Shown one piece after another: positions 657 through 15,357 of a stretch of 64,000 bases of DNA. Under the pieces are notes generated by a model, which saw only the letters and a program-made list of their open reading frames with translations, did not search any database and had not been told where the DNA came from. The DNA is taken from positions 2,790,501 through 2,854,500 of the forward strand of contig NZ_CP156084.1 in assembly GCF_040687965.1 (NCBI RefSeq), in the 5' to 3' direction. The position numbers and the translations under genes were made by a program. The DNA comes from Methylocystis echinoides. Its GTDB lineage: Bacteria; Pseudomonadota; Alphaproteobacteria; Rhizobiales; Beijerinckiaceae. Position 1 is the stretch's first letter. Every line of letters begins with the position of its first letter.

Positions 657-998
657 TCAGGGATTTCCGAGACCCGGCAGGGGCGGCAGGGATTCGATAT
701 GCTGGCCAAGACCCGTGTAGCTTTGATTGCCGACCTGGGTGACGCCAGCAGTGTTCGACTGTGAGCTTCCGGCTTTGCCGATGGAGACCTGCTGCACGCC
801 GACAAAATTAGTCAGGCTGTTCTGCTTGACGTCGAGATCGTTGTGCTGGCCAAACTGCACGCCCGCGACGGCGCCCAGCAGCGGATTGTTGATGTTGACG
901 CCGATAAAGCTCGGGCTGACGCTGATGAAGCCTTGCGCCTGGGCCTGGCCTGCTCCAGCGCAGACCAAAAGTGGAATAAGCCAATATTTCATTTTCAT
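657..998 (-). CDS. Small secreted protein, MKYWLIP family (copy 1)
   Basis: The 113-aa product starts with a clear Sec signal peptide (MKMKYWLIPLLVCAGAGQAQA, cut after AQA). The mature part of about 90 residues is rich in Gln, Asn, Gly and Ser with no cysteine. Evenly spaced Gln/Asn/Gly positions (QFGQHN, VGVQQVSIGK, QSNTAGVTQVGNQ, GLGQHI) recall curlin-type beta-solenoid repeats, but the spacing is not a clean match to CsgA. It is a paralogue of 6469-6780, sharing the signal peptide, a VQQ..(I/V)GK segment, and LGQHI near the end. ATG 998 follows GCGGAGC; ATG 992 is also possible. Secretion is well supported. A fibre or adhesin role is inference. Confidence 0.75.
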   Translation of the reverse strand: MKMKYWLIPLLVCAGAGQAQAQGFISVSPSFIGVNINNPLLGAVAGVQFGQHNDLDVKQNSLTNFVGVQQVSIGKAGSSQSNTAGVTQVGNQSYTGLGQHIESLPPLPGLGNP

Positions 999-1057
999 GC
1001 TCCGCTCATCTTCGGCGATCCCGTCGGGCAGGGACGTGGCCGCATTCGAGGATAGAG

Positions 1058-1080
1058 TCGCGGCTAAGGAAGCCGCGACC
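1058..1080 (-). terminator. Hairpin terminator after repeat gene 1109-1498
   Basis: GTCGCGGCT and AGCCGCGAC form a 9-bp stem around a short AAGGA loop, immediately downstream of the minus-strand gene ending at 1109. Confidence 0.5.
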
Positions 1081-1108
1081 TGGTTCGACTCCAGCCAGGA
1101 GCAAGTTG

Positions 1109-1498
1109 TCAGGGCGCGCTGAAGTTCAGCGGAACCTGGCCTTGAATGACCGTCGCCTTATTAATGGCGTCACCCCCTTTGGAGGTGTCGCCGATGGACT
1201 GATTGATCGTCAATTCTTGCGAGAGGGACTTGTTTCCCGCGTTGACAGGGATCTGCACCTGCAAGACCGACGCCTTATTCAGCGCAAAGCCGCCTTTTGA
1301 CGTGTCGCCGGTCAGCTGGTTCAATTTCAGTTGCTGTGTGACCGAAGGCGTCGGCGGCGATGCGGGCGGCGTCAAGGGCGCCAAAGGCGCGAGGGGCGCG
1401 CCGCCGGCCGATTGGGTCGAAGAGGTGATCGTTATCTCAGCGAAGGCGAGGCTGTTTGAGAGGGCCATGATGGCGGGGACGAGAAGAAACTTCTTCAT
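1109..1498 (-). CDS. Secreted two-repeat protein, IGDTSKGG family (copy 1)
   Basis: The product is 129 aa with a signal peptide (MKKFLLVPAIMALSNSLAFA). A Pro/Ala linker with an APLAPLAPL run, absent from the other copies, comes next. Two tandem units of about 35 residues follow, each reading roughly N-Q-x-x-GDTSKGG-x-A-x-NKA-x-V-x-Q-x-Q-(I/V)-P-(V/L)-N, and the protein ends PLNFSAP. ATG 1498 has an excellent AGGAGG ribosome site 7 nt upstream, which decides the start over longer in-frame extensions. Paralogues are 1740-2039 (same strand, next gene) and 10100-10399. The sequence shows secretion and repeat architecture. The function is unknown; a structural or fibre-forming surface role is inferred from the repeats and the neighbouring regulators. 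Confidence 0.8.
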   Translation of the reverse strand: MKKFLLVPAIMALSNSLAFAEITITSSTQSAGGAPLAPLAPLTPPASPPTPSVTQQLKLNQLTGDTSKGGFALNKASVLQVQIPVNAGNKSLSQELTINQSIGDTSKGGDAINKATVIQGQVPLNFSAP

Positions 1499-1684
1499 CT
1501 TGATTCCTCCTGATGTCCCTGTGAATTGACGCCGAGAGGCGCACCAGGGATCTATTTGGGAGGCAGCACTAGGTTTGGCGCCTGTTTGGCTGCCTAGTTT
1601 TCGAAAAGCAGCGGCCCACTTCCTACTCGCTGTATCAGCAATGCTTAATGCAATGGGCGGGAACGCCGCCGGGTCCGGTGCGAA

Positions 1685-1711
1685 GATCGCGGCCGGCAAT
1701 TGGCCGCGATC
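1685..1711 (-). terminator. Hairpin terminator after repeat gene 1740-2039
   Basis: GATCGCGGCC (1685-1694) pairs with GGCCGCGATC (1702-1711). The same stem sequence recurs downstream of the paralogue at 10100 (10046-10071), so gene and terminator appear to have duplicated together. Confidence 0.55.
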
Positions 1712-1739
1712 CTCTCTTAGCGAACTAGCGCGTCAATTC

Positions 1740-2039
1740 TCACGGGGCGCCGAAGTTCAGCGGAACCTGAGCCTGGATCACGACGTTCTTGTTGATCGCG
1801 TCGCCGCCCTTGGAGGTGTTGCCGATCGTCTGGCCAAGCTCCGCCTTCTGCGAGATGTTGCCGGAGCCGGCGTTGACCGGAACCTGCGCCTGCACGAGGA
1901 AGGACTTGTTCAGGGCGAAACCACCCTTGGAGGTGTCGCCGATCGTCTGGTTGAGCTTCAGCGACTGGCTGATGTCGAGAGCGAAGGCGAAGTTGGTCGA
2001 AAGGGCCACCGCGGCCGAAACGAGAAGCAGCTTTTTCAT
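1740..2039 (-). CDS. Secreted two-repeat protein, IGDTSKGG family (copy 2)
   Basis: The product is 99 aa with signal peptide MKKLLLVSAAVALSTNFAFA and a mature chain that begins LDISQSLKLNQ. It has two repeat units. The first contains IGDTSKGGFALNK and QAQVPVNAG. The second contains IGNTSKGGDAINK and QAQVPLNFGAP. No cysteine and no membrane segment follow the signal. ATG 2039 is preceded by GGGAGAATTCCT. It closely matches 10100-10399 and more loosely 1109-1498, which has an extra Pro/Ala linker. The LuxR-type gene at 2357-3070 is the next gene upstream on the same strand and is the obvious candidate regulator. No database family is claimed. Confidence 0.8.
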   Translation of the reverse strand: MKKLLLVSAAVALSTNFAFALDISQSLKLNQTIGDTSKGGFALNKSFLVQAQVPVNAGSGNISQKAELGQTIGNTSKGGDAINKNVVIQAQVPLNFGAP

Positions 2040-2356
2040 AGGAATTCTCCCAGAATCCACAAGGAAGCTCTACTGCGAGCTTACAGTTGCGAATGTAACT
2101 GGGCGGTGGATATGCCGATAGGCGCCATTTCGGCTCAATTAAGGCAAGCTTTGGCAACAAAAGGACAGGGTGAAGGCGCCCGTTTGGCGTACGTACTTAT
2201 CCGCGGAGGAGAGCGGTGGGCGATCCGCATCTCCCTCCTCGGGTCTATTTCGATCGGACGTCGTCTGCGTGGTCTCTTCCCTGGCCCTGTGCAGGAAGCG
2301 GGCCAAATGCGCTGATACTCTTTTCAAACCGGCGAACGCGGACGCTGAAGCAGCGA
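2040..2356. other. Intergenic region, 317 bp
   Basis: No gene is supported here. It must contain the promoter of the secreted repeat gene starting at 2039 and the 3' end of the luxR-type transcript. I see no clear sigma-70 boxes. The small open frames are GC-driven shadows. Confidence 0.5.
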
Positions 2357-3070
2357 CTATTTGGCGGGCTTTGCGACCAGTTCCGCGATTTTTACGACAG
2401 CTTCAGTGCGATTGCGCACCTGCAGTTTCCGCATCACGTTTCGGATATGGACTTTTACGCTGCTTGCGCTCATGCCAAGTTCATAAGCAATCACTTTGTT
2501 GGACTTGCCCTTCAACAAGGCTTTTACGACGTCGTTCTCGCGAGCGGTGAAATCCACCTTTGGGTCGTTGGCGGTGGAGTCGGTGCGCGCGGTTTTCCAC
2601 ATTTCCTTCGCCGCCTGCGCGGGGACGAAGACGCCACCCGACAGCACGAGCCTGATCGCCTGCGCCGCGACCTCTAAAGGGGTGTTGCTCGGGATATAGC
2701 CCTTCGCGCCGTTGCGAATAACGTCGCTCATGTGGTCCAGGCTGAAATCGTCCGAGAGAACGATGACCGGCACGGGCTTTTGTTCGCCTGAGGACTCGTG
2801 CACGATCTCCGAACGCCGTGCGTCGATCTCCGTCTCTCGGCCGCTCAGGATGATGATGCAGGCTGAGGACCCCGTGGGATCCCGGCTCCAACTCCCCATA
2901 TCCGGATAGGCCAATACGGGAAGGGCCAGCTTTTTTTGGAGGCTCAGCGCCAAGCATTCGCGGATCAGGGAGCGCGCTTCGATGATGACGACCGAGGGAG
3001 CCGTCAATAGAGGCAGCCCAAGGCCGCTTACCTCATTAAGGCGAATCTGTTCTTGAACCTCAGCGATCAT
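2357..3070 (-). CDS. LuxR-type regulator with pseudo-receiver domain (copy 1)
   Basis: The product is 237 aa from ATG 3070 (GGGGGG SD). Residues about 25-145 have receiver-domain character but lack the phosphorylation chemistry. The acidic pair is replaced (VVIIEARSLIRECL). The strand that should carry the acceptor Asp reads IIILSG. The conserved Lys region reads GYIPSNT. A LuxR/NarL helix-turn-helix fills the C-terminus (FTARENDVVKALLKGKSNK, then SASSVKVHIRNVMRKL). It therefore probably binds DNA without classical phosphorelay input. Paralogues are 8121-8816 and 14337-15092. It stands upstream of the secreted repeat genes 1109-2039 and probably controls them. CsgD, the curli regulator, is a known LuxR protein with a non-canonical receiver, which is a suggestive parallel. 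Confidence 0.85.
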   Translation of the reverse strand: MIAEVQEQIRLNEVSGLGLPLLTAPSVVIIEARSLIRECLALSLQKKLALPVLAYPDMGSWSRDPTGSSACIIILSGRETEIDARRSEIVHESSGEQKPVPVIVLSDDFSLDHMSDVIRNGAKGYIPSNTPLEVAAQAIRLVLSGGVFVPAQAAKEMWKTARTDSTANDPKVDFTARENDVVKALLKGKSNKVIAYELGMSASSVKVHIRNVMRKLQVRNRTEAVVKIAELVAKPAK

Positions 3071-3442
3071 ATAACCCCCCTTCGGACGCGCGTCTCTCAC
3101 AGAGTAATTGCAAGGATTCCGCACAGTAGGCGTTGAGAGAAATGCTAAGCCTCTACGTTGCTATTCTGCACGTCCGTGTAATGTCGCTTTTATAACGCGA
3201 TCCACGCTAACTACTCTTGTGGCGATCTGCCAAGGAAGCATTCGCTCATGAACAACGTTCGATCGTTGATGTTGCGGTGTTGCAACATCTTAAGCGGTTG
3301 CCGGTTCTGGCCGATTTCGGTTGACGATCGCCCGATGAAGTTCGCCAACGCCCCCCGGGGCCGCTTGGCGCGCCGCCGCAACCAGCCCCCGTTTTGCCGA
3401 AATTGGCTTACAAAAAAGCGCGAGGGAGGAAGTAAAAACAAG
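3071..3442. other. Divergent intergenic region, 372 bp
   Basis: This lies between the luxR-type gene (leftward) and the L,D-transpeptidase gene (rightward). An open frame in phase with the transpeptidase extends back to 3248 but looks non-coding (Arg/Cys/Pro-rich). A GCTAAG hexamer at 3144-3149 recurs upstream of other genes of this locus. No other feature is seen. Confidence 0.5.
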
Positions 3443-6468: not shown

Positions 6469-6780
6469 TCAGGGCTGGGAGGTGGAAAATGGGGACAAAT
6501 TATTGAACGTCACAATATGCTGGCCCAGATTTACGAAGTCCTTGGGCCCCGTCTGTACGACCGTGGCGTCGTTACTGAGCTTTTCATTCGGTTTGCCGAC
6601 GGCGAGTTGCTGCACGGCGAAAATATTCACCGGGGCGCTCTGCTGGGTGGAAATGACGTTGTTCTGACCCGCCTGCACGCCGGTCGTTACGGTCACAAAG
6701 GGGGTGCTGTAAGTGTAAACCTGCGCCTGCGCCTCAGCGGCCCCAATGCAGACGAGAATGGGAATAAGCCAGTATTTCAT
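6469..6780 (-). CDS. Small secreted protein, MKYWLIP family (copy 2)
   Basis: The product is 103 aa from ATG 6780 (GGGAGTTGAAAAC upstream). The signal peptide MKYWLIPILVCIGAAEAQAQ is nearly identical to that of 657-998. The mature chain is Val/Thr/Gln/Asn-rich (VQAGQNNVIS, FAVQQLAVGK, LGQHIVTFNNL) and has no cysteine. It lies downstream of the Omp25-like gene and the second pseudo-receiver regulator on the same strand, mirroring the organisation of the first block. A surface or matrix role is inference. Confidence 0.72.
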   Translation of the reverse strand: MKYWLIPILVCIGAAEAQAQVYTYSTPFVTVTTGVQAGQNNVISTQQSAPVNIFAVQQLAVGKPNEKLSNDATVVQTGPKDFVNLGQHIVTFNNLSPFSTSQP

Positions 6781-6904: not shown

Positions 6905-7879
6905 TCAATACTTCGCGACGATCGGAACTGGCGCGCCCCAATTAAAGTGGTAGCTCACGCCCGCGCGGACAATGTTTCCGTTGAGCCGGGCGCGCACCTG
7001 GCCGCCGAAAATCGCCGGGTCGGGAAGGAACGATGCAGGGTTGACCGAACTCATCACGAAGTCGTCCGAGAACGAGCCCAGGTCGTAATAGAGATACTCG
7101 ACCTTTGCCGACCAGTTCGGGAGGAACATCCACTCGAGACCGCCGCCGGCCGTCCATCCGGTCAGCACCGTCGAGATGTTCACGCCGCCAGCGCCAGGGC
7201 CAGTGAAGAAATTACCAGGGCTGAGCGGCGTGGGGCCCGTCGGCGCGACGGAGGTCAGCGTGTTCACATTGACGCCGCCATAGGCGAAGCCGCCGGTGCC
7301 ATAGACGAGCAGGGTCGGGATCACAGCCCAGCCAAGGCGGCCGCGCACTGTGCCGAGGTAGTTCAGGCTACCGCGAACGGCCGTGACGCCCGCGTAACCA
7401 TCGCCGACGAGCGGGCCGAGCAGACCGGGGACGGCCACATTCGTCAGGACAGTTCGCGAGCCGTTGCTCGCCGCGACGCCCTGGAAGTCCGCCTCCAGGC
7501 CAATGACGAAATTGTTGTAGAATTGCCAGTTGTAACCAAACTGGCCGCCGCCGATGAAGCCGCCGTTGTTGCCGGAGTTGACGCCGCCGGCAGACGCAGC
7601 CGTGCTGAAAGCCGCCAGGTAATTGCCTTGGTCGAAAACAAAGGCGGACGGAAGCGCCCAAAAAGGACCGGCTCCGAGGGGGCTGACGGCGATGGTTTGC
7701 TGATTACTATTCGCCCAAGTCCCGCCGGCGTTGAGACCGACGTAGAATCCCGTCCAGGTCGGCGGCGGCGGCGGCGGCGGCGGAAGGACCGGCGGGGCTT
7801 TGCGAGACGGGAGATCGGCGGCCAGCGCTGACCCAGCGGTCAGCGCGAGCGCGGCGACGGAGAGAGCGATCTTCTTCAT
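6905..7879 (-). CDS. Omp25/RopB-like outer membrane beta-barrel protein
   Basis: The product is 324 aa with signal peptide MKKIALSVAALALTAGSALA, then ADLPSRKAPP and a run of prolines. The barrel begins WTGFYVGLNAGG. Repeating amphipathic strands include FGYNWQF, LGTVRGRLGW, LLVYGTGGFAYGG, WTAGGGLEWMF and KVEYLYYDLG, and the C-terminus is GVSYHFNW. These are the standard motifs of the Hyphomicrobiales Omp_b-brl family (PF13505). Its barrel is of the same type as the two C-terminal barrels of 10723-14286. The proline run (7755-7795) is a hinge between the plug peptide and the barrel. Confidence 0.9.
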   Translation of the reverse strand: MKKIALSVAALALTAGSALAADLPSRKAPPVLPPPPPPPPTWTGFYVGLNAGGTWANSNQQTIAVSPLGAGPFWALPSAFVFDQGNYLAAFSTAASAGGVNSGNNGGFIGGGQFGYNWQFYNNFVIGLEADFQGVAASNGSRTVLTNVAVPGLLGPLVGDGYAGVTAVRGSLNYLGTVRGRLGWAVIPTLLVYGTGGFAYGGVNVNTLTSVAPTGPTPLSPGNFFTGPGAGGVNISTVLTGWTAGGGLEWMFLPNWSAKVEYLYYDLGSFSDDFVMSSVNPASFLPDPAIFGGQVRARLNGNIVRAGVSYHFNWGAPVPIVAKY

Positions 7880-8120: not shown

Positions 8121-8816
8121 TCACCGCGAAAAAGTGCAGCGAATAATCTGAGAAAGCTTGGTGACCGCTTCTGTGCGATTTCGGGCCCGCAACTTACGGA
8201 AAACGCTTCGGATATGATATTTGACGCTGCTTTCCGCCAACCCGATGTCATAGGCGATGACTTTGTTGGACTTGCCTTTCAATAAGGCTTCGACAACCTG
8301 GTGTTCCCGCTGCGTGAAATCAGTCGACGCCCTCGTTTGTGGAGGGTTGGCCCCGTCTTGCGGCCCCTCCAGGTCCATGACATTCGCCGGGATGAAGCAG
8401 CCGCCAGCGAGCACCAGCTGAATTGCTTCGGCGGCCACGTCGAGCGACATCTCCATTGGAATAAATCCGCGCGCGCCACAACGAAGCGCATCGGCGACGT
8501 TCTGTGCGCTCGGAGCCTCGGCGAGGATGATGACAGGCGGGGCATTTTCGAAGACCGAAAGCTCCCGGAGGAGTTCATGCCACAGGGCGCTCGCCACGCC
8601 TTGGCCGCTCACGACAATCACGCATTTGGCAAAGGTGGAGGCGCTATGGCTCCAATTTTGGAGATCGGAATAGGTTGCGATGGGAAGCAGAAGCTTTTCT
8701 TGAAGACCGAGCGCCAGACACTCGCGTATGAGCGTCCTCTTATCGATTAAGACGACCGTCGGCTCCATATCGACTGGTCGATCTGTCTTCACGTAAAATT
8801 CAGCCGTTTCAACCAT
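8121..8816 (-). CDS. LuxR-type regulator with pseudo-receiver domain (copy 2)
   Basis: The product is 231 aa from ATG 8816 (GGGGGACCCA upstream); a GTG at 8828 is possible. The architecture matches 2357-3070. The receiver-like half has VVLIDKRTLIRECLALGL, no acceptor Asp (CVIVVSGQG) and GFIPMEMS where the conserved Lys should be. The C-terminal LuxR helix-turn-helix reads FTQREHQVVEALLKGKSNK and ESSVKYHIRSVFRKL. It sits directly upstream of the Omp25-like gene on the same strand, so that porin and the MKYWLIP gene are the likely targets. Signal input, if any, is not phosphorylation of the usual Asp. Confidence 0.84.
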   Translation of the reverse strand: MVETAEFYVKTDRPVDMEPTVVLIDKRTLIRECLALGLQEKLLLPIATYSDLQNWSHSASTFAKCVIVVSGQGVASALWHELLRELSVFENAPPVIILAEAPSAQNVADALRCGARGFIPMEMSLDVAAEAIQLVLAGGCFIPANVMDLEGPQDGANPPQTRASTDFTQREHQVVEALLKGKSNKVIAYDIGLAESSVKYHIRSVFRKLRARNRTEAVTKLSQIIRCTFSR

Positions 8817-9119
8817 TGGGTCCCCCACGGGCGCGCAATAGGAAGGCTACGCGCGAGGAGTCCAAATAAGCCTTGAGACAAACGCTAAGATTTTACCAAT
8901 CATCCGCTTAAGAGGATGAGAGCGCACGCCTGAAGAGGAACAAGCGCGCTCGCGCCTGTGCGATCCAATTGGGCTGAAGCCAACTGGATTTTGCTAGGCG
9001 AGGCCCTGGCTGGGAGGTCGAAAAGCTAAGGAACGAATACATAGGCCAGCGCGTTGTTCTTCAAGCGTCGCTTTCCGCACGGGAGGCCGCATGTGGCCAA
9101 ACCGGAAGGAAAGCTTGCG
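8817..9119. other. Divergent intergenic region with GCTAAG copies
   Basis: This separates the leftward regulator from the rightward ORF 9120. GCTAAG occurs at 8884-8889 and 9025-9030. A ten-codon open frame (9091-9123) with a GGGAGG ribosome site ends in an ATGA overlap with the ATG at 9120. It could be a leader peptide, but it may be chance. Confidence 0.35.
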
Positions 9120-9629
9120 ATGACCAGCAACAACAACAATATTTGCTGGCGCAGGCTCTTCGTTATCGGTGGCTTGCTGTCGTTTACAAGTGCGTTTGGC
9201 CAAGTGCTTGCGCCTGTATCTGTTCATACAGCCCCACAGGCGGCGCTAAAGCAGGGCGCCTTCGCTTTGCAAGGAGCCGCGCCTCTTCAGGCTTCTGCGG
9301 CCCTTGCCGAAGGTCCGGCAGCCGCGACGCCGTCGGCTGCATCGGCGAGCAGCTTCCTCGCGCCGGCGCAGATTGCGACGATCGCCGCGGAGCAAACGAT
9401 CAATCCGACAGTTCTCGCGCCCTCGGCGCGTAAGTTGATCCCGAGGGGATGCATGTTGATATTGTCGTGCCCGACGGCGAACAATCGGCGGCCTTATTTT
9501 GCAAAAAGCCTGCCGCCCCAGCGGAGCGTTGAAAAGCATTGGCGACCAATGCGCTCGACGCATGTCCAAATGAAGCGGGGCATGGGCAAGCGCCATGCCG
9601 ACCTCGCACATTTGTCAGCCTCGAAATAG
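9120..9629 (+). pseudogene. Secreted Ala/Pro-rich ORF, probably frameshifted
   Basis: From ATG 9120 (GGAAGGAAAG upstream) a signal-anchor-like segment (CWRRLFVIGGLLSFTSAFG) leads into an Ala/Pro/Gln-rich exported region. That region ends TINPTVLAPSARKL, which resembles NPTVLAPAAKL at the mature N-terminus of the TpsB-like fusion 10723-14286. Beyond about 9435 the reading frame turns basic and implausible (NNRRPYFAKSLPPQRSVEKH). Another frame gives a natural-looking sequence (HVDIVVPDGEQSAALFC). I infer a frameshift near 9430-9450, so the gene is likely broken or contains an error. The function is unknown. Confidence 0.4.
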
Positions 9630-9705: not shown

Positions 9706-9960
9706 CTACTTGTTTCTCTCCTGAGGGCCAGTGCGCTGGATAATAACGGCGCTGCTGTTCTGGCCGCGCTGCTTGACGACGACAGAGCCTGGCGCGGATT
9801 GCACATGCGTTTCGGCTTTCGTCTCACCAGGGCTCGTCTGAATGATGGTCACGGAGCTACTGGAGCCGCCGGACTCGGTGACGACGTTGATCTCATTCGC
9901 ATAAGTTGGGTGCGACATGCCGATCAAGCTCACGAAAAGCGAAGCATGGAGGCGATTCAT
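9706..9960 (-). CDS. Small secreted protein, 84 aa
   Basis: From ATG 9960 the product has a signal peptide (MNRLHASLFVSLIGMSHPTYA) and a short mature chain of alternating hydrophobic and polar residues (SSVTIIQTSPGET, SVVVKQRGQNSSAVIIQR). The last segment has Q/G/N spacing reminiscent of curlin-like repeat proteins. ATG 9978 is an alternative start, and neither has a strong ribosome site. It is the last gene of the third block, downstream of the secreted repeat gene at 10100, and is separated from it by the hairpin at 10046-10071. The functional link to its neighbours is inference. Confidence 0.55.
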   Translation of the reverse strand: MNRLHASLFVSLIGMSHPTYANEINVVTESGGSSSSVTIIQTSPGETKAETHVQSAPGSVVVKQRGQNSSAVIIQRTGPQERNK

Positions 9961-10099: not shown

Positions 10100-10399
10100 T
10101 CAGGGGGCGCTGAAGTTCAGCGGAACCTGGGCCTGGATCACGACGGCCTTGTTCTTGGCTTCGCCGCCCTTGGTGGTGTCGCCGATCGACTGCGCGATGT
10201 CCGCTTTCTGCGTGACGTTGCCCGACGTCGTGTTCACGGGAACTTGCGCCTGCAGAACGAAAGCCTTGTTGAGGGCGAAGCCGCCCTTCGAGGTGTCGCC
10301 GATCGACTGGTTCAGCTTAAGCGACTGGCTGATGTCGAGAGCAAAGGCAAAGCTGCTCGAAAGAGCAAGAACAACGGGAACAATAATGAGCTTTTTCAT
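10100..10399 (-). CDS. Secreted two-repeat protein, IGDTSKGG family (copy 3)
   Basis: The product is 99 aa with signal peptide MKKLIIVPVVLALSSSFAFA and mature start LDISQSLKLNQ, identical there to copy 2. Unit 1 has IGDTSKGGFALNK and QAQVPVN. Unit 2 has IGDTTKGGEAKNK and QAQVPLNFSAP. ATG 10399 has an AGGAGGG ribosome site. It is divergent from the TpsB-like fusion gene across a 323-bp region with a 10-bp inverted repeat, so the two may be co-regulated. High identity to copy 2, including the downstream terminator, suggests recent duplication or gene conversion. The function is unknown. Confidence 0.8.
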   Translation of the reverse strand: MKKLIIVPVVLALSSSFAFALDISQSLKLNQSIGDTSKGGFALNKAFVLQAQVPVNTTSGNVTQKADIAQSIGDTTKGGEAKNKAVVIQAQVPLNFSAP

Positions 10400-10722: not shown

Positions 10723-13700
10723 TTGGCTACGCAAAAAAAACGTTTCCAGAACCGGCATGTGCGCCGCGGCGGCTGTTTCCTGGCTGCGGTCGTTGCGGGT
10801 GCGACTCAGTTCACGGCGAGGGCGGAGGCGCAGGCTTTCAATCCGACCGTGCTGGCGCCTGCGGCGAAGCTTCCGCCAGCTCGCGAAGTCAAAGCGACGA
10901 TTGCGCGTGACCGTAAAGCCCTCCTCGCGCCGGCCGGAGCTGAAAATAAGTTTGTCACCGTTCAAAGCGTCGCGATTGAGGGCGCATTCCCCGAGCTGTC
11001 CGAGCAGAACGCCGCATTTGCGCGGAAACTGCAGGGAAGGCGGCTCAGCGTTGCGGAAATTTATCAGGCAGCCTTCGAGCTTCAGGCCGCTTATGCAAAG
11101 GCGTTCCCGCTCACGACTCTCATTGCTCCGCGGCCGGAGTTCGACGGAGGGGTTGTCCGCCTCGCGGTCATCGATGGAGTCATCGAGGATATCGAGATTG
11201 TCGGGGCGTCAGAGGGCACCCAACAGCTTGTTCGCTCCCGTCTCGAACCGCTCCTTGGCCAGCGCCATCTGACGGCCGCCGAATATGATCGGCGAACCAT
11301 TCTCGTTGGCATGATCGCCGGCGTGAGCGGCGTGGCGACCGCAAAGCCTGGCGCAGGCGACGACAGATATGTTCTTTCGATCGGGATTACCGAAAACCGC
11401 GTCGCCGGGGCCTCGGTCATCACAAACCGACTGCCGAAAGAATTCGGGCCCTGGGAGTTCGCGCAAGCTCTGGCCGTGAACAACGCCTTTGGCTTTGGCG
11501 AGCAGATTTCCGGGGCCGTATCGTCGAGCCCGGATGTGGACCGCTTTTTCGACGGCACGGCAAAAAGTCAGGCCTATAGCGTCGATGTGGCGATTCCCGT
11601 CGGCATCGACGGTCTTGCTATCGGCGGCGGCTATCTCTCTGCGCGTTCCCGCGCCACCCCTTTGTTTTCTCCGCTGCCAGCCGACCTGCTCAACGCAGGC
11701 GAACGGTCGACCGGCAGGTTCGATCGCGTCAATGTGAAGGTCGGTTATCCGCTCATTCTCCGCTCGGATCTGACGCTTCGCACGCAGGTCTCGCTGGAGC
11801 ACATCAACAACCGCAACCGCTATGAGCCCTTACCGCTCGGTTTCGTGTTCCCGAGCCTTTCGCTTTTTCCAATTAACGACGTCAGCCGCGACCGCTACAC
11901 CGTCACGAGATTGGGAGCGGAGGGCAGCTACCGTCTTCCGTGGCTCGAAAATGCGACGGCCAGCGGTCTTATTCTTTACGGTCTCGGCCTCGGCGGCCGC
12001 GTAGGCAGCGACAACTATATGTTTGGTCCGCCGCTCTCGCGCCTCTACGCGAGTCCCGTCTTCAACAGGTTGAACCTCAAGGGTCGCATTGACATCGGCT
12101 TGCCGGAGCAATTCTATTTCTCCGCGATCGGCCGCATGCAGACGAGCTTCGGCAAGCCGCTGATGCTCCCCGAAAACTTCATTCTCGATGGTTCCGAGGC
12201 CGTGTCCGGCTATGCGTCCGGCACGCTCAACGTGGACCGTGGCGTGACGGCGCGCGCCGAGCTTATGCGCCCCGTCAATCTCGAATTCCTGGGCTTCAAT
12301 CATGTCGTCGCCCCTTACATTTTCGGCGCCTGGGGCAGCGGCGTGCACGAAAATCGCGCGCCGGGTCAGCTCCGCAACATTTGGGCGGAGACCTTTGGCG
12401 GCGGCCTGAGAACGGACACCAATTTCACCGACACGCCATTCGGCGAGTCGCTCGCGATCGAGTTCGGACGCGATTTTTCGAACATTCCGTTCCGCGAGAC
12501 CGGCTATCGCACCAATGTGAGCTACGCCATGCGTTTCGCCGGCAATCCGCTGGCGCCCGACGCGACGCCGGCGTCGCGTACCGGCGTGCTCAAGAGCGGT
12601 CTGCCCGATGCGCCGCCGCCTTTGCTTTGGCAGGGGTTCTATGCTGGCTTGAACGCCGGTTACACTTGGGATCCGCGCCCGGCGGTCACGACTTTGTCTT
12701 GGCCGGCGGAGACGTCAATTGACAATTGGCTGATGGCGCCGCCCTCGCTCATTCCTTTCCCAGGTTACTGGGAGGCTTCCGCGCGCGGCGTCAATGGCCA
12801 ATCTCTTGCCGCGGGCGGCGGTTTTTTCGGCGGCGGGCAGCTCGGCTTCAATCTGCAGGTCAATCGTTTCGTGCTCGGCATCGAGACAGACATGCAGGGC
12901 GCAAACACGCGCACGCGGCATGTATTGCAGAGCTTCAACCCGGCAGGCATTCTCGGCGCGCCCTGGGTCGATTACGCCGGCACGTCGATCCACAACACCA
13001 AGTCTGTTGATTGGCTCGGCACGACGCGCGCGCGCGTCGGCTATCTGATTACGCCCACCTTGCTCGGCTACGCGACGGGCGGCGTCGCCTATGGCGGCGC
13101 CCGCGCGAGCAGCGTCGCCTTGCAGAGCTGGGGCGGAGAATTGATGAGCGCGGTCCTGGGGGTGCCGGCGCTGCTGCAGGCCTCCGGCGGAGCGGGCCAG
13201 TATTCGGGAACGCGCGCTGGTTGGACTATCGGCGCCGGTCTCGAATGGATGTTCGCTCCGAACGCCAGCCTCAAAGCCGAATATCTGCATTACGACCTCG
13301 GCAGCACCAACTATGCAATTTCGCCGCTTGCGACGATTTTGCAGCCGCTCGCTCTCAGCAACGTGCTCGGCGTGAACGCCTATACGCAGTTCAGGGGCGA
13401 CATCGCACGCATGGGGCTGAACTATCATTTCGGCGCGGGCAAAACCGTGGAGACGGCTTCCGCGCCCCCGGCGGTCTTCACGTCCGGCTTCTACGCCGGT
13501 CTGAACGTTGGGTATGGCTGGGACGCGACGCCCACCGTCTCCTCGCGCGTCGTTCCGATGCAGAACACGCTCGACCAGGCTTTGGCGTCAAATCTCGGCT
13601 CAGCCGCGGCGCTCACCGCGACCGGCGCCTTGAAGGCAAATGCAAATGGCGCGTTGGGCGGCGGCCAGGCGGGTTACAATTACGTCCTGGGCCGTTATGT

Positions 13701-14286
13701 CGGCGGCGTCGAGTTTGATTTGCAGGGTGCGAGCCAGCAGGGCCAGGGAGGTTTCGCCGCCATTGCGCCCTATACGATCGCCGGCGCGCCCCTCGGGACG
13801 ACTGGAACGTCGGTCGCCGTCGAGAAAACCCTCGATTGGTTCGGCACGGTGCGCGCGCGGGCCGGCTATCTTATCACGCCGTCGATCCTTGCTTTCGCCA
13901 GCGGCGGCTTTGCCTATGGCGGTATGACCCTGCAAAATCGCGTCGGTCACACGACGGACGTGCTTCCCTTGCTTTGGGCCTTTGCCCAGTCGAACAGTTC
14001 CGTTGGCCACATTTCTACGGCGCGCGTCGGCTGGACTCTCGGCGGCGGCTTTGAATGGAAGTTCACGCCCGATATGAGCCTGAAGGCCGAGTATCTCTAT
14101 TACGACCTGGGCCAGGCGAACGCGACCGGAGCCATTACGGACGCTTTCAGAATTGGGCCAGCCAGCCCTGCGTTCGTTAATACCGCGAACGTGACTGCAA
14201 GCACACGTTTCAACGGACAAATCGCGCGGCTCGGCTTCAACTACCACTTCGATCCGACCGTCGCGATGCAGTTGATCGTCAAGTGA
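10723..14286 (+). CDS. TpsB-like POTRA/barrel protein fused to two Omp25-like barrels
   Basis: The product is 1187 aa. An export signal (RRGGCFLAAVVAGATQF and on to about residue 38) precedes NPTVLAPAAKLPPAREV. Residues about 74-230 look like ShlB-type POTRA domains (FVTVQSVAIEG, VRLAVIDGVIEDIEIVG). Residues about 235-620 resemble a ShlB/FhaC/HecB barrel with alternating beta strands. Two Omp25-like barrels follow: about 635-905 (begins WQGFYAGLNAGYTW, ends MGLNYHFG) and 917-1187 (begins SGFYAGLNVGYGW, ends LGFNYHFD). TpsB proteins normally end after their own barrel and export a large TpsA partner; none is seen here. The start is uncertain: TTG 10723 or GTG 10759, with no ATG near. Whether one chain forms three barrels is unknown. 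Confidence 0.8.
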   Translation: MATQKKRFQNRHVRRGGCFLAAVVAGATQFTARAEAQAFNPTVLAPAAKLPPAREVKATIARDRKALLAPAGAENKFVTVQSVAIEGAFPELSEQNAAFARKLQGRRLSVAEIYQAAFELQAAYAKAFPLTTLIAPRPEFDGGVVRLAVIDGVIEDIEIVGASEGTQQLVRSRLEPLLGQRHLTAAEYDRRTILVGMIAGVSGVATAKPGAGDDRYVLSIGITENRVAGASVITNRLPKEFGPWEFAQALAVNNAFGFGEQISGAVSSSPDVDRFFDGTAKSQAYSVDVAIPVGIDGLAIGGGYLSARSRATPLFSPLPADLLNAGERSTGRFDRVNVKVGYPLILRSDLTLRTQVSLEHINNRNRYEPLPLGFVFPSLSLFPINDVSRDRYTVTRLGAEGSYRLPWLENATASGLILYGLGLGGRVGSDNYMFGPPLSRLYASPVFNRLNLKGRIDIGLPEQFYFSAIGRMQTSFGKPLMLPENFILDGSEAVSGYASGTLNVDRGVTARAELMRPVNLEFLGFNHVVAPYIFGAWGSGVHENRAPGQLRNIWAETFGGGLRTDTNFTDTPFGESLAIEFGRDFSNIPFRETGYRTNVSYAMRFAGNPLAPDATPASRTGVLKSGLPDAPPPLLWQGFYAGLNAGYTWDPRPAVTTLSWPAETSIDNWLMAPPSLIPFPGYWEASARGVNGQSLAAGGGFFGGGQLGFNLQVNRFVLGIETDMQGANTRTRHVLQSFNPAGILGAPWVDYAGTSIHNTKSVDWLGTTRARVGYLITPTLLGYATGGVAYGGARASSVALQSWGGELMSAVLGVPALLQASGGAGQYSGTRAGWTIGAGLEWMFAPNASLKAEYLHYDLGSTNYAISPLATILQPLALSNVLGVNAYTQFRGDIARMGLNYHFGAGKTVETASAPPAVFTSGFYAGLNVGYGWDATPTVSSRVVPMQNTLDQALASNLGSAAALTATGALKANANGALGGGQAGYNYVLGRYVGGVEFDLQGASQQGQGGFAAIAPYTIAGAPLGTTGTSVAVEKTLDWFGTVRARAGYLITPSILAFASGGFAYGGMTLQNRVGHTTDVLPLLWAFAQSNSSVGHISTARVGWTLGGGFEWKFTPDMSLKAEYLYYDLGQANATGAITDAFRIGPASPAFVNTANVTASTRFNGQIARLGFNYHFDPTVAMQLIVK

Positions 14287-14336: not shown

Positions 14337-15092
14337 TTATCGAGCGGGGCCGAGCGCAAAAAAACCAGGCGGGTTTTCCATGTGACCCGTCTTGCTCTGA
14401 ACGATCGAGCCGAGCGCAATAACCGCCTCGGTTCGGTTGTGCACCCCTAATCTGCGCATGATATTGCGGATGTGCACCTTCACGCTGCTTTCGCTCAAAT
14501 TGAGTTCATGAGCGATGAGCTTGTTGGACTCGCCTTTCAGCAGTCGCCTGACGACGTCATATTCCCGCGGGGTGAACTCGAACTTTGCGCTCCCGAGCGC
14601 CTCCGGCTCGACATCGTCGTCTTCCTCCATGACCAAAGCGGCGGGTATGAATACGCCCCCGACGATGACCAGCTTTATCGCGCGCGCAGCGATTTCGAGG
14701 GGGGTGTCGCTCGAGATATAGCCCCTCACCCCACAGCGCAGGCTCTTGGCGATTTGGTCTTTCTTCTCCGTATCAGAGAAGATGACGACGGGAACGCCGG
14801 TTTGCCTCCGGCACAGCTCCCGGATGATTTCAAATTGCTCGCTGATCTGGCGCTCGAGTCCGCTCAAGATGATGGCGCATGCAGACGAGCCGAGCGGGTC
14901 TTCAGCCCAGGACTTCACGTCCGGATAGGTCAGAACCGGCAGTCTCAGCTTGTTCTGGAGGCAGAGCGCGAGGCATTCCCCAATCAGAGCTCTGTTCTCG
15001 ACGACGACGAGGGAAGGCGACTGGAAGGCTTTGTCCCGGCATGAACCTGAGAATAAACTTTTTGAAAAAAACTCTTGCGTCTCATCCGTCAT
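14337..15092 (-). CDS. LuxR-type regulator with pseudo-receiver domain (copy 3)
   Basis: The product is 251 aa from ATG 15092 (GGGGAGGTCGAT upstream). The receiver-like region begins LVVVENRALIGECLALCLQ, has CAIILSGLE where the acceptor Asp should be, and GYISSDTP in place of the Lys motif. The LuxR helix-turn-helix is at the C-terminus (FTPREYDVVRRLLKGESNK, ESSVKVHIRNIMRRL). It converges on the TpsB-like fusion gene and closes the third block. Together with 2357 and 8121 it forms a three-member family in 13 kb, which strongly suggests local duplication of a regulator with its target set. Confidence 0.84.
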   Translation of the reverse strand: MTDETQEFFSKSLFSGSCRDKAFQSPSLVVVENRALIGECLALCLQNKLRLPVLTYPDVKSWAEDPLGSSACAIILSGLERQISEQFEIIRELCRRQTGVPVVIFSDTEKKDQIAKSLRCGVRGYISSDTPLEIAARAIKLVIVGGVFIPAALVMEEDDDVEPEALGSAKFEFTPREYDVVRRLLKGESNKLIAHELNLSESSVKVHIRNIMRRLGVHNRTEAVIALGSIVQSKTGHMENPPGFFALGPAR

Positions 15093-15357
15093 ATCGACCT
15101 CCCCACGCAAGCACTAACACAACCGATTAACCTGTATCTCGATGATCCGCTTTTCAAGTAAGGAGTTAGAAAGGCGTTAACAACTACAACGTGACCATGC
15201 GGCGAGACGCATGCTTATTCAGAGCAGGGCAAGCGCTCGGCGTCTTTTGATTTCGATTCCAATGTCTCGCGAGCGCTCGATTGCATAATCACCCAACTCC
15301 TAATCGTCGCCAGGCGCAAGTCTTCATCGCGAAGCCGAGTTCTTCACGGAGGCGCGC

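Follow-up and report, generated by a model that had tools for sequence, protein, structure and literature searches.

The window examined here, a 64,000-nucleotide stretch of the Methylocystis echinoides contig NZ_CP156084.1 (assembly GCF_040687965.1, positions 2,790,501 to 2,854,500), carries a gene in which an outer-membrane transporter of the TpsB type is fused to two Omp25-type barrels, with small secreted proteins of three types, termed A, B and C, encoded divergently beside it (Table 1). The open reading frame (ORF), at 10723-14286 on the forward strand, begins with TTG and runs for 1187 codons without an internal stop. A sequence-only reading of this DNA had described one 1187-residue chain of POTRA domains, a ShlB/FhaC-type barrel and two Omp25-like barrels; Pfam, AlphaFold2 and Foldseek agree on this, and the three-part architecture is confirmed at the level of sequence and structure prediction. 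Pfam matches ShlB at residues 388-539 (E-value (E) 1.3e-6) and OMP_b-brl (PF13505) in two stretches (E 1.9e-17). The AlphaFold2 model, built from a 21-sequence alignment with a mean predicted local distance difference test score (pLDDT) of 70.8, has POTRA-like elements at residues about 77-224, and barrel strands that, counted manually from DSSP elements, number 16 (residues 227-606), 8 (638-902) and 8 (922-1176). The first barrel is predicted to span residues 227-606, close to the region (235-620) that the earlier reading had taken for one. The predicted template modelling score is low (0.49), so the mutual arrangement of the barrels is not given by the model. The top Foldseek matches are CdiB (E 1.5e-25) and FhaC (E 8.4e-23), and a sequence profile finds CdiB (E 4.4e-4) and TpsB4 (E 2.9e-3) in the PDB, where the single sequence gave no match.

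Each Omp25 unit is complete, with the GFYAGLN opening and NYHF ending already recognized from the sequence. Among 53 TpsB-positive ORFs scanned with an Omp25-unit profile, eight contain two significant units each, these being the eight fused ones, and the other 45 contain none. The unfused relatives scanned end at their barrel, as TpsB proteins had been said normally to do. The TpsB motif comprises VRGY/F on loop 6 and an Asp partner in F/GxDxG, according to sections of PMC5422565; the fused protein reads VSGY and FGAWGSG at these places, both the Arg and the Asp partner being absent.

The join recurs well beyond the window. The TpsB part, used as a query, has matches in 35 of the 199 family genomes and in eight of the 39 genus genomes, and an order-wide TpsB profile search finds 23 of 397 genomes at E 1e-20. 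Long fused frames, and with them the same three-part order, occur in nine genomes, seven of Methylocystis and two of a second genus (g17), whose fused transporter is 38-40% identical to the window protein; seven of the nine genomes are rated 100% complete, one (G056) 95% and one (G208) 89%. The sequence-only reading had allowed for an artificial join, which its presence in nine genomes makes very unlikely; judging from these sequences, the fusion appears old and real. A plasmid search gave no match for the B family and 19 records with a TpsB-like match of unfused length (26-30% identity in the best 10 of the 19).

Neighbourhoods were compared across 51 loci: nine of the clade (eight fused loci plus L095, an unfused relative) and 42 comparison TpsB loci, the latter drawn from 21 unfused family genomes, from G218, and from every one of the 19 additional order-wide genomes (20 places). 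Nine further TpsB-matching family genomes were left out of the 42, as was, from the locus comparison, the fused copy of G210 (L071), which is near-identical to that of G211 and whose contig ends just upstream. Presence was called at E 1e-5 within 7 kb of TpsB, using for the two-partner secretion (TPS) domain a profile trained on 13 of the compared loci with PF05860 matches. A TPS-domain gene was found in 0 of 9 clade loci versus 31 of 42 comparison loci (lacking in L051, L060-L062, L064, L074, L078, L132 and L146-L148, some on short contigs), in agreement with the earlier remark that no large TpsA is nearby. Small secreted genes in divergent orientation show the opposite pattern: types A and B are each present in all nine clade loci and type C in six (not in L045, L046 or L072), versus none of the 42 for any type. 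The A, B and C profiles were built from the same clade loci and were hence retrained with each lineage excluded. So trained, the B profile recovers 9/9 loci, its best copy at E 9.1e-9 or better, with no match at E < 1 in the comparison loci; the C profile recovers 6/9 at E 1.5e-8 or better (best among the 42, 0.045); and the A profile recovers 7/9, each at E 3.2e-4 or below. Apart from the fused gene, BLAST finds only LuxR homologues and C in common between the window and g17 neighbourhoods, A and B being common to them by profile. The conserved neighbours that the sequence-only reading had looked to are thus present, and the link between the fused transporter and the small genes, which are curlin-like as set out below, is strong.

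A B-family profile matches curlins in the PDB, 8c50, a ‘Curlin associated repeat-containing protein’ (E 5.5e-26), and the major curlin subunit in 8enq/8enr (E 7.8e-5). Pfam Curlin_rpt is above its cut-off in three of ten small proteins, namely the B proteins of L048 (E 1.7e-9) and L047 (E 6.1e-6) and the A protein of L048 (E 1.6e-5), and also in B of L095 (E 8e-5); both A proteins of L047, B of L045 and C of L095 fall below it, and the A, B and C proteins of the window, run singly against Pfam, give no Curlin_rpt match. Ten mature sequences were scored for the half-repeat N-x-(hydrophobic)-x-(hydrophobic)-x-Q, a kernel following sections of PMC10192328, with 2000 shuffles as background. Six copies in A of L048 and four in A of L095 were reached by no shuffle, and the window has three in B at 660-998 (P 0.0005) and two in A at 10103-10399 (NKAFVLQ and NKAVVIQ; P 0.0065). 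Counts were within chance in A at 1743-2060 (P 0.15), and the strict form was not beyond chance in the window’s C. On this evidence B is assigned to the curlin family, as is A in L048 and, by motif, in L095, with apparent divergence in the window’s group. Type C is less clear as a candidate curlin-like subunit. It was also considered as a CsgH/CsgC chaperone and rejected as such, there being no such Pfam match in the C proteins of the window, L047, L048 and L095; a type C profile likewise matched neither CsgH nor CsgC in the PDB. Signal peptides of the small proteins were noted by eye. The earlier reading had these as secreted repeat proteins and as possible cargo: the first part gains a likeness to curlins that it did not contain, and the second is much favoured by their staying with the transporter across genera, by the identity of B and by searches that found neither a TPS-domain gene in the window genome nor CsgG, export itself being what we infer.

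CsgG (PF03783) was not found in any of the nine fused genomes. One search found none in the seven fused Methylocystis genomes, with one match among 39 Methylocystis genomes, and a second found none in six genomes, both of g17 included; Escherichia coli and Caulobacter controls were positive, and the searched set includes the 89%-complete G208 and is without the L095 genome. By a profile with seeds partly from fused genomes, seven of the 39 Methylocystis genomes carry strong B genes (E 6.3e-15 or better), and these are the very seven that have the fused gene. Weak B matches (E 3e-4 to 9e-4) appear in four other Methylocystis, those of G190 and G177 within porin-linked curlin loci. When Pfam Curlin_rpt was searched with E allowed up to 1, a setting that also yields weak matches in two archaeal controls, six of the nine fused genomes had a match immediately next to the fused gene; of these, the matches in G056 (3.1e-8) and G016 (1.7e-4) are strong, and the other four lie between 0.003 and 0.18. 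The window genome holds nine B copies, two in the window and seven outside it, each of the seven beside an A and one of them on a 299-kb contig, whereas ShlB, POTRA_2 and C are each matched once; these numbers fit one exporter serving many cassettes. Scattered A-B cassettes of this genome lie at L086, L087, L088, L154-L157 and window 657-2060, one of them on contig C2, with a short extra B-like frame at L155.

In a tree of TpsB parts, the eight fused proteins form one branch (support 100/100). A second tree, with L095 and three more sequences added and seven distant rows left out, unites the nine A/B loci (100/100) and nests L095 inside the fused branch, with L047 (97/95). The TpsB of L095 stops right after its barrel, without Omp25 barrels, and keeps A, B and C beside it, so that the small genes go with the TpsB part and not with the Omp25 barrels; this locus comes from a metagenome contig, where an assembly error is possible. 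Read from these trees, the Omp25 pair was either lost once or gained twice, with A, B and C apparently staying with the TpsB part. In a tree of Omp25 units that bears on a possible origin of the pair from free Omp25 genes, support for a barrel 1 group and for a barrel 2 group is confined to Methylocystis; of its ten free Omp25 rows, seven (L005-L011) had been taken from the wrong strand and are uninformative.

Table 1. Features of the fused gene and its surroundings in the window
Feature	Position	Strand	Evidence
Fused gene, TpsB-type transporter + two Omp25-type barrels	10723..14286	+	1187 residues; ORF, Pfam, AlphaFold2, kept in nine genomes
POTRA 1, residues 79-152	10957..11178	+	Pfam POTRA_2, E 4e-6
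POTRA 2 (predicted), residues about 153-224	11179..11394	+	Helix/strand order in AlphaFold2 model; without own Pfam match
16-strand TpsB-type barrel (predicted), residues 227-606	11401..12540	+	ShlB, AlphaFold2, Foldseek; endpoint of unfused relatives
Omp25-type barrel 1, residues 638-903	12634..13431	+	PF13505; 8 strands; Omp25 profile
Omp25-type barrel 2, residues 922-1176	13486..14250	+	PF13505 (two stretches in protein); 8 strands; Omp25 profile
Closest divergent gene, encoding a small secreted protein of type A	10100..10399	-	Lineage-excluded profile, E 9.4e-9; no Pfam match
Small secreted protein of type C (start chosen by us)	9706..9960	-	Lineage-excluded profile, E 7.4e-17
Type B curlin-family protein (start chosen by us)	6469..6780	-	Lineage-excluded profile, E 9.1e-9
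Second type B gene	657..998	-	Profile searches
Another pair of type A genes (1112-1699; 1743-2060)	1109..2060	-	Profile searches
LuxR-type regulator	14337..15110	-	GerE, E 3.4e-20
Second LuxR-type regulator	8121..8828	-	GerE, E 5.9e-17
Third LuxR-type regulator, adjoins second A/B cassette	2357..3124	-	–

The nearer type B gene is displaced from A and C in the window genome. A homologue of the LuxR-type regulator that follows the fused gene is near it in all eight other fused loci compared, on the other side in L048 and at 31-33% identity in g17. Set against the CsgD type, its best PDB match is NarL, and VpsT is matched by the DNA-binding part only (E 1.9e-5). Between the displaced B and a LuxR gene lies a free Omp25-type barrel gene (6905-7879, reverse strand), with a counterpart similarly placed in L070. 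Elsewhere in the window genome, a long frame at L005 (G000:C3:100878-101675) has an Omp25 unit followed by a second barrel-like region noted by eye, and two near-identical frames of about 900 residues, L009 and L010 (G000:C1:647006 and 3631387), have an Omp25 unit at their end. The NPTVLAP stretch, which in the fused transporter lies close to where the mature protein begins, recurs in a small ORF at 9054-9629 (forward strand), a relative of which is present, among the fused loci compared, in L070 only.

We consider it probable that the fused gene encodes a TpsB-derived outer-membrane translocator for curlin-like subunits, A, B and probably C, rather than for a TpsA. On this view a TpsB-derived pore gave up a TpsA as its cargo, took on curlin-like amyloid subunits instead and acquired two barrels. 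The subunits would pass the inner membrane by means of their signal peptides, be kept unfolded in the periplasm and bound by the POTRA domains, and then thread the 16-strand barrel to fold into beta-solenoids at the surface, where they may form fibres. The two 8-strand barrels might anchor or cluster the pore, and could offer a surface dock or nucleation site; anchoring or nucleation is our best guess at their role. TpsA proteins fold into a beta-helix or beta-solenoid at the cell surface as well, so the change of cargo may have been mechanically easy. Curlins are unfolded before secretion and form beta-solenoids in the fibre, as stated in sections of PMC10192328. A folding-driven pore with POTRA guidance might therefore take curlins after only small adjustments.

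The proposed system has features of several known ones. It resembles TpsB transporters (FhaC and CdiB; type Vb secretion) in its POTRA domains, 16-strand barrel, and fold and profile matches, but differs in continuing into two barrels, in its curlin-like neighbours, in lacking the VRGY Arg and F/GxDxG Asp, and in a window genome without a TPS-domain match. It resembles curli (type VIII secretion, with CsgG as the pore) in having curlin-repeat subunits in small gene sets with a LuxR-type regulator near, but CsgG was not found in the fused genomes, a TpsB-derived protein stands in its place, and the subunits of the locus are short, with few repeats. Its Omp25 units are like Omp25-type or PF13505 barrels in being complete from start to end, and unlike free ones in being appended to a transporter. 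Several barrels per chain (16 + 8 + 8 as predicted here) also liken it to multi-barrel outer-membrane proteins, reportedly the subject of Solan et al. in PNAS in 2021. To our knowledge, the order TpsB, Omp25, Omp25 is without a published case. Among the matches listed, open-licence titles and abstract openings named neither this curlin-TpsB pairing nor this fusion. Outer-membrane proteins with several barrels in one chain are described in parts of PMC8592465 and PMC11494523.

Several observations weigh against a translocator of curlin-like subunits. Secretion and fibres are deduced from genes. Moreover, the window’s A and C are without a Curlin_rpt match, an A-family sequence search of the PDB found no curlin, and the model of A (pLDDT 73) has no significant fold match, the best being FapC at E 0.55, so that type A did not reach a proven curlin fold. 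The search profiles, that for B included, derive from these same loci, and with lineages excluded A scores 0.049 in L045 and 0.15 in L046, no better than the best comparison match (0.063). The nine loci descend from one switch and are therefore not independent. The Omp85 hallmark Arg of VRGY and its Asp partner are lost, as they also are in TpsA-paired unfused relatives; loss of this Arg as a sign of lost transport was rejected, relatives adjoining a TpsA lacking it too. Finally, Curlin_rpt matches occur in five of 12 non-fused Methylocystis scanned, and a Porin_2-type barrel stands beside curlin in four fetched non-fused loci (L080, L081, L082 and L090). The barrel of L082 (9645-11258) is just under the Pfam cut-off for Porin_2 (E 2.3e-4), and it has a homologue in G031 (L153 1009-2457; 28% identity over 429 residues; Porin_2 E 6.9e-31), a genome with no TpsB match, where an A/B/C-like set adjoins it; the porin is thus homologous across two genera. 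Curlin genes in Methylocystis without this TpsB and without a CsgG match imply that this pore is not the sole route, and the fused pore would be at most one of several solutions to curlin export.

The same porin-linked loci bear on a second reading, in which the fused protein is a surface anchor or nucleator of the curlin-like proteins, a CsgB- or CsgF-like job, and another pore exports them. The two 8-strand barrels do resemble anchors, and eight of the nine B copies of the window genome lie well away from the fused gene, but in L095 the A/B/C cassette stays with the translocating parts, POTRA and 16-strand barrel, with no Omp25 barrels. The CsgG search of the nine fused genomes was negative, and no homologue of the curlin-linked Porin_2-like protein was found in the seven clade neighbourhoods searched (neighbourhoods, not whole genomes). 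We regard such a division of labour as unlikely.

Less probable still is a mere shared island, in which the genes and the LuxR regulator travel together with no direct functional tie, the fused protein acting as a porin or adhesin with several barrels. A single evolutionary event would account for the linkage, and further Omp25 units occur in long frames of the window genome. Against this reading, what the window and g17 loci share besides the fused gene, at 38-39% identity of the transporter, is by BLAST only LuxR homologues and C, and by profile A and B; moreover, one ShlB and one POTRA_2 match stand against nine B genes in the window genome. That the fused protein serves a large TpsA encoded elsewhere seems very improbable: G135, G164, G214 and G016 each have one TPS-domain match away from the fused gene (on another contig in G135 and G016), but that of G164 adjoins its own POTRA_2/ShlB gene (E 7e-19 and 8.4e-13), and the genomes of the window, G210, G211, G208 and G056 have no match to PF05860, by which a TpsA supplied in trans was rejected for the window genome. 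The distant TPS-domain proteins of G214 and G164 (L083, L084) are 1055-1061 residues long, and the G164 locus also has ExbB-, ExbD- and TonB-looking genes, named by eye.

A TpsB-derived translocator of curlin-like subunits would speak to a wider gap. In many Alphaproteobacteria only the curlin subunits are identifiable and alternative proteins must take the other roles, according to parts of PMC3521004 (2012), and 1033 of 43279 CsgA-containing genomes are without CsgG in the figures given in sections of PMC10192328 (2023). In these partial sources, curlins lacking CsgG are on record without a named exporter, and the locus described here supplies a named candidate. We lean slightly towards a second curli export route in which CsgG gives way to an Omp85/TpsB-type translocator, in most cases carrying two fused 8-strand barrels, that secretes curlin-family amyloid subunits and so joins type Vb with type VIII secretion. 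More broadly, alphaproteobacterial curlins without CsgG may in each case have taken on a local barrel, derived from TpsB here and Porin_2-like elsewhere. The fused protein, as a predicted natural three-barrel protein, lends itself to the study of outer-membrane assembly. If the proposal is true, a TpsB pore can swap a giant TpsA for small amyloid subunits, and these bacteria would possess an unrecognised way of exporting amyloid fibres.

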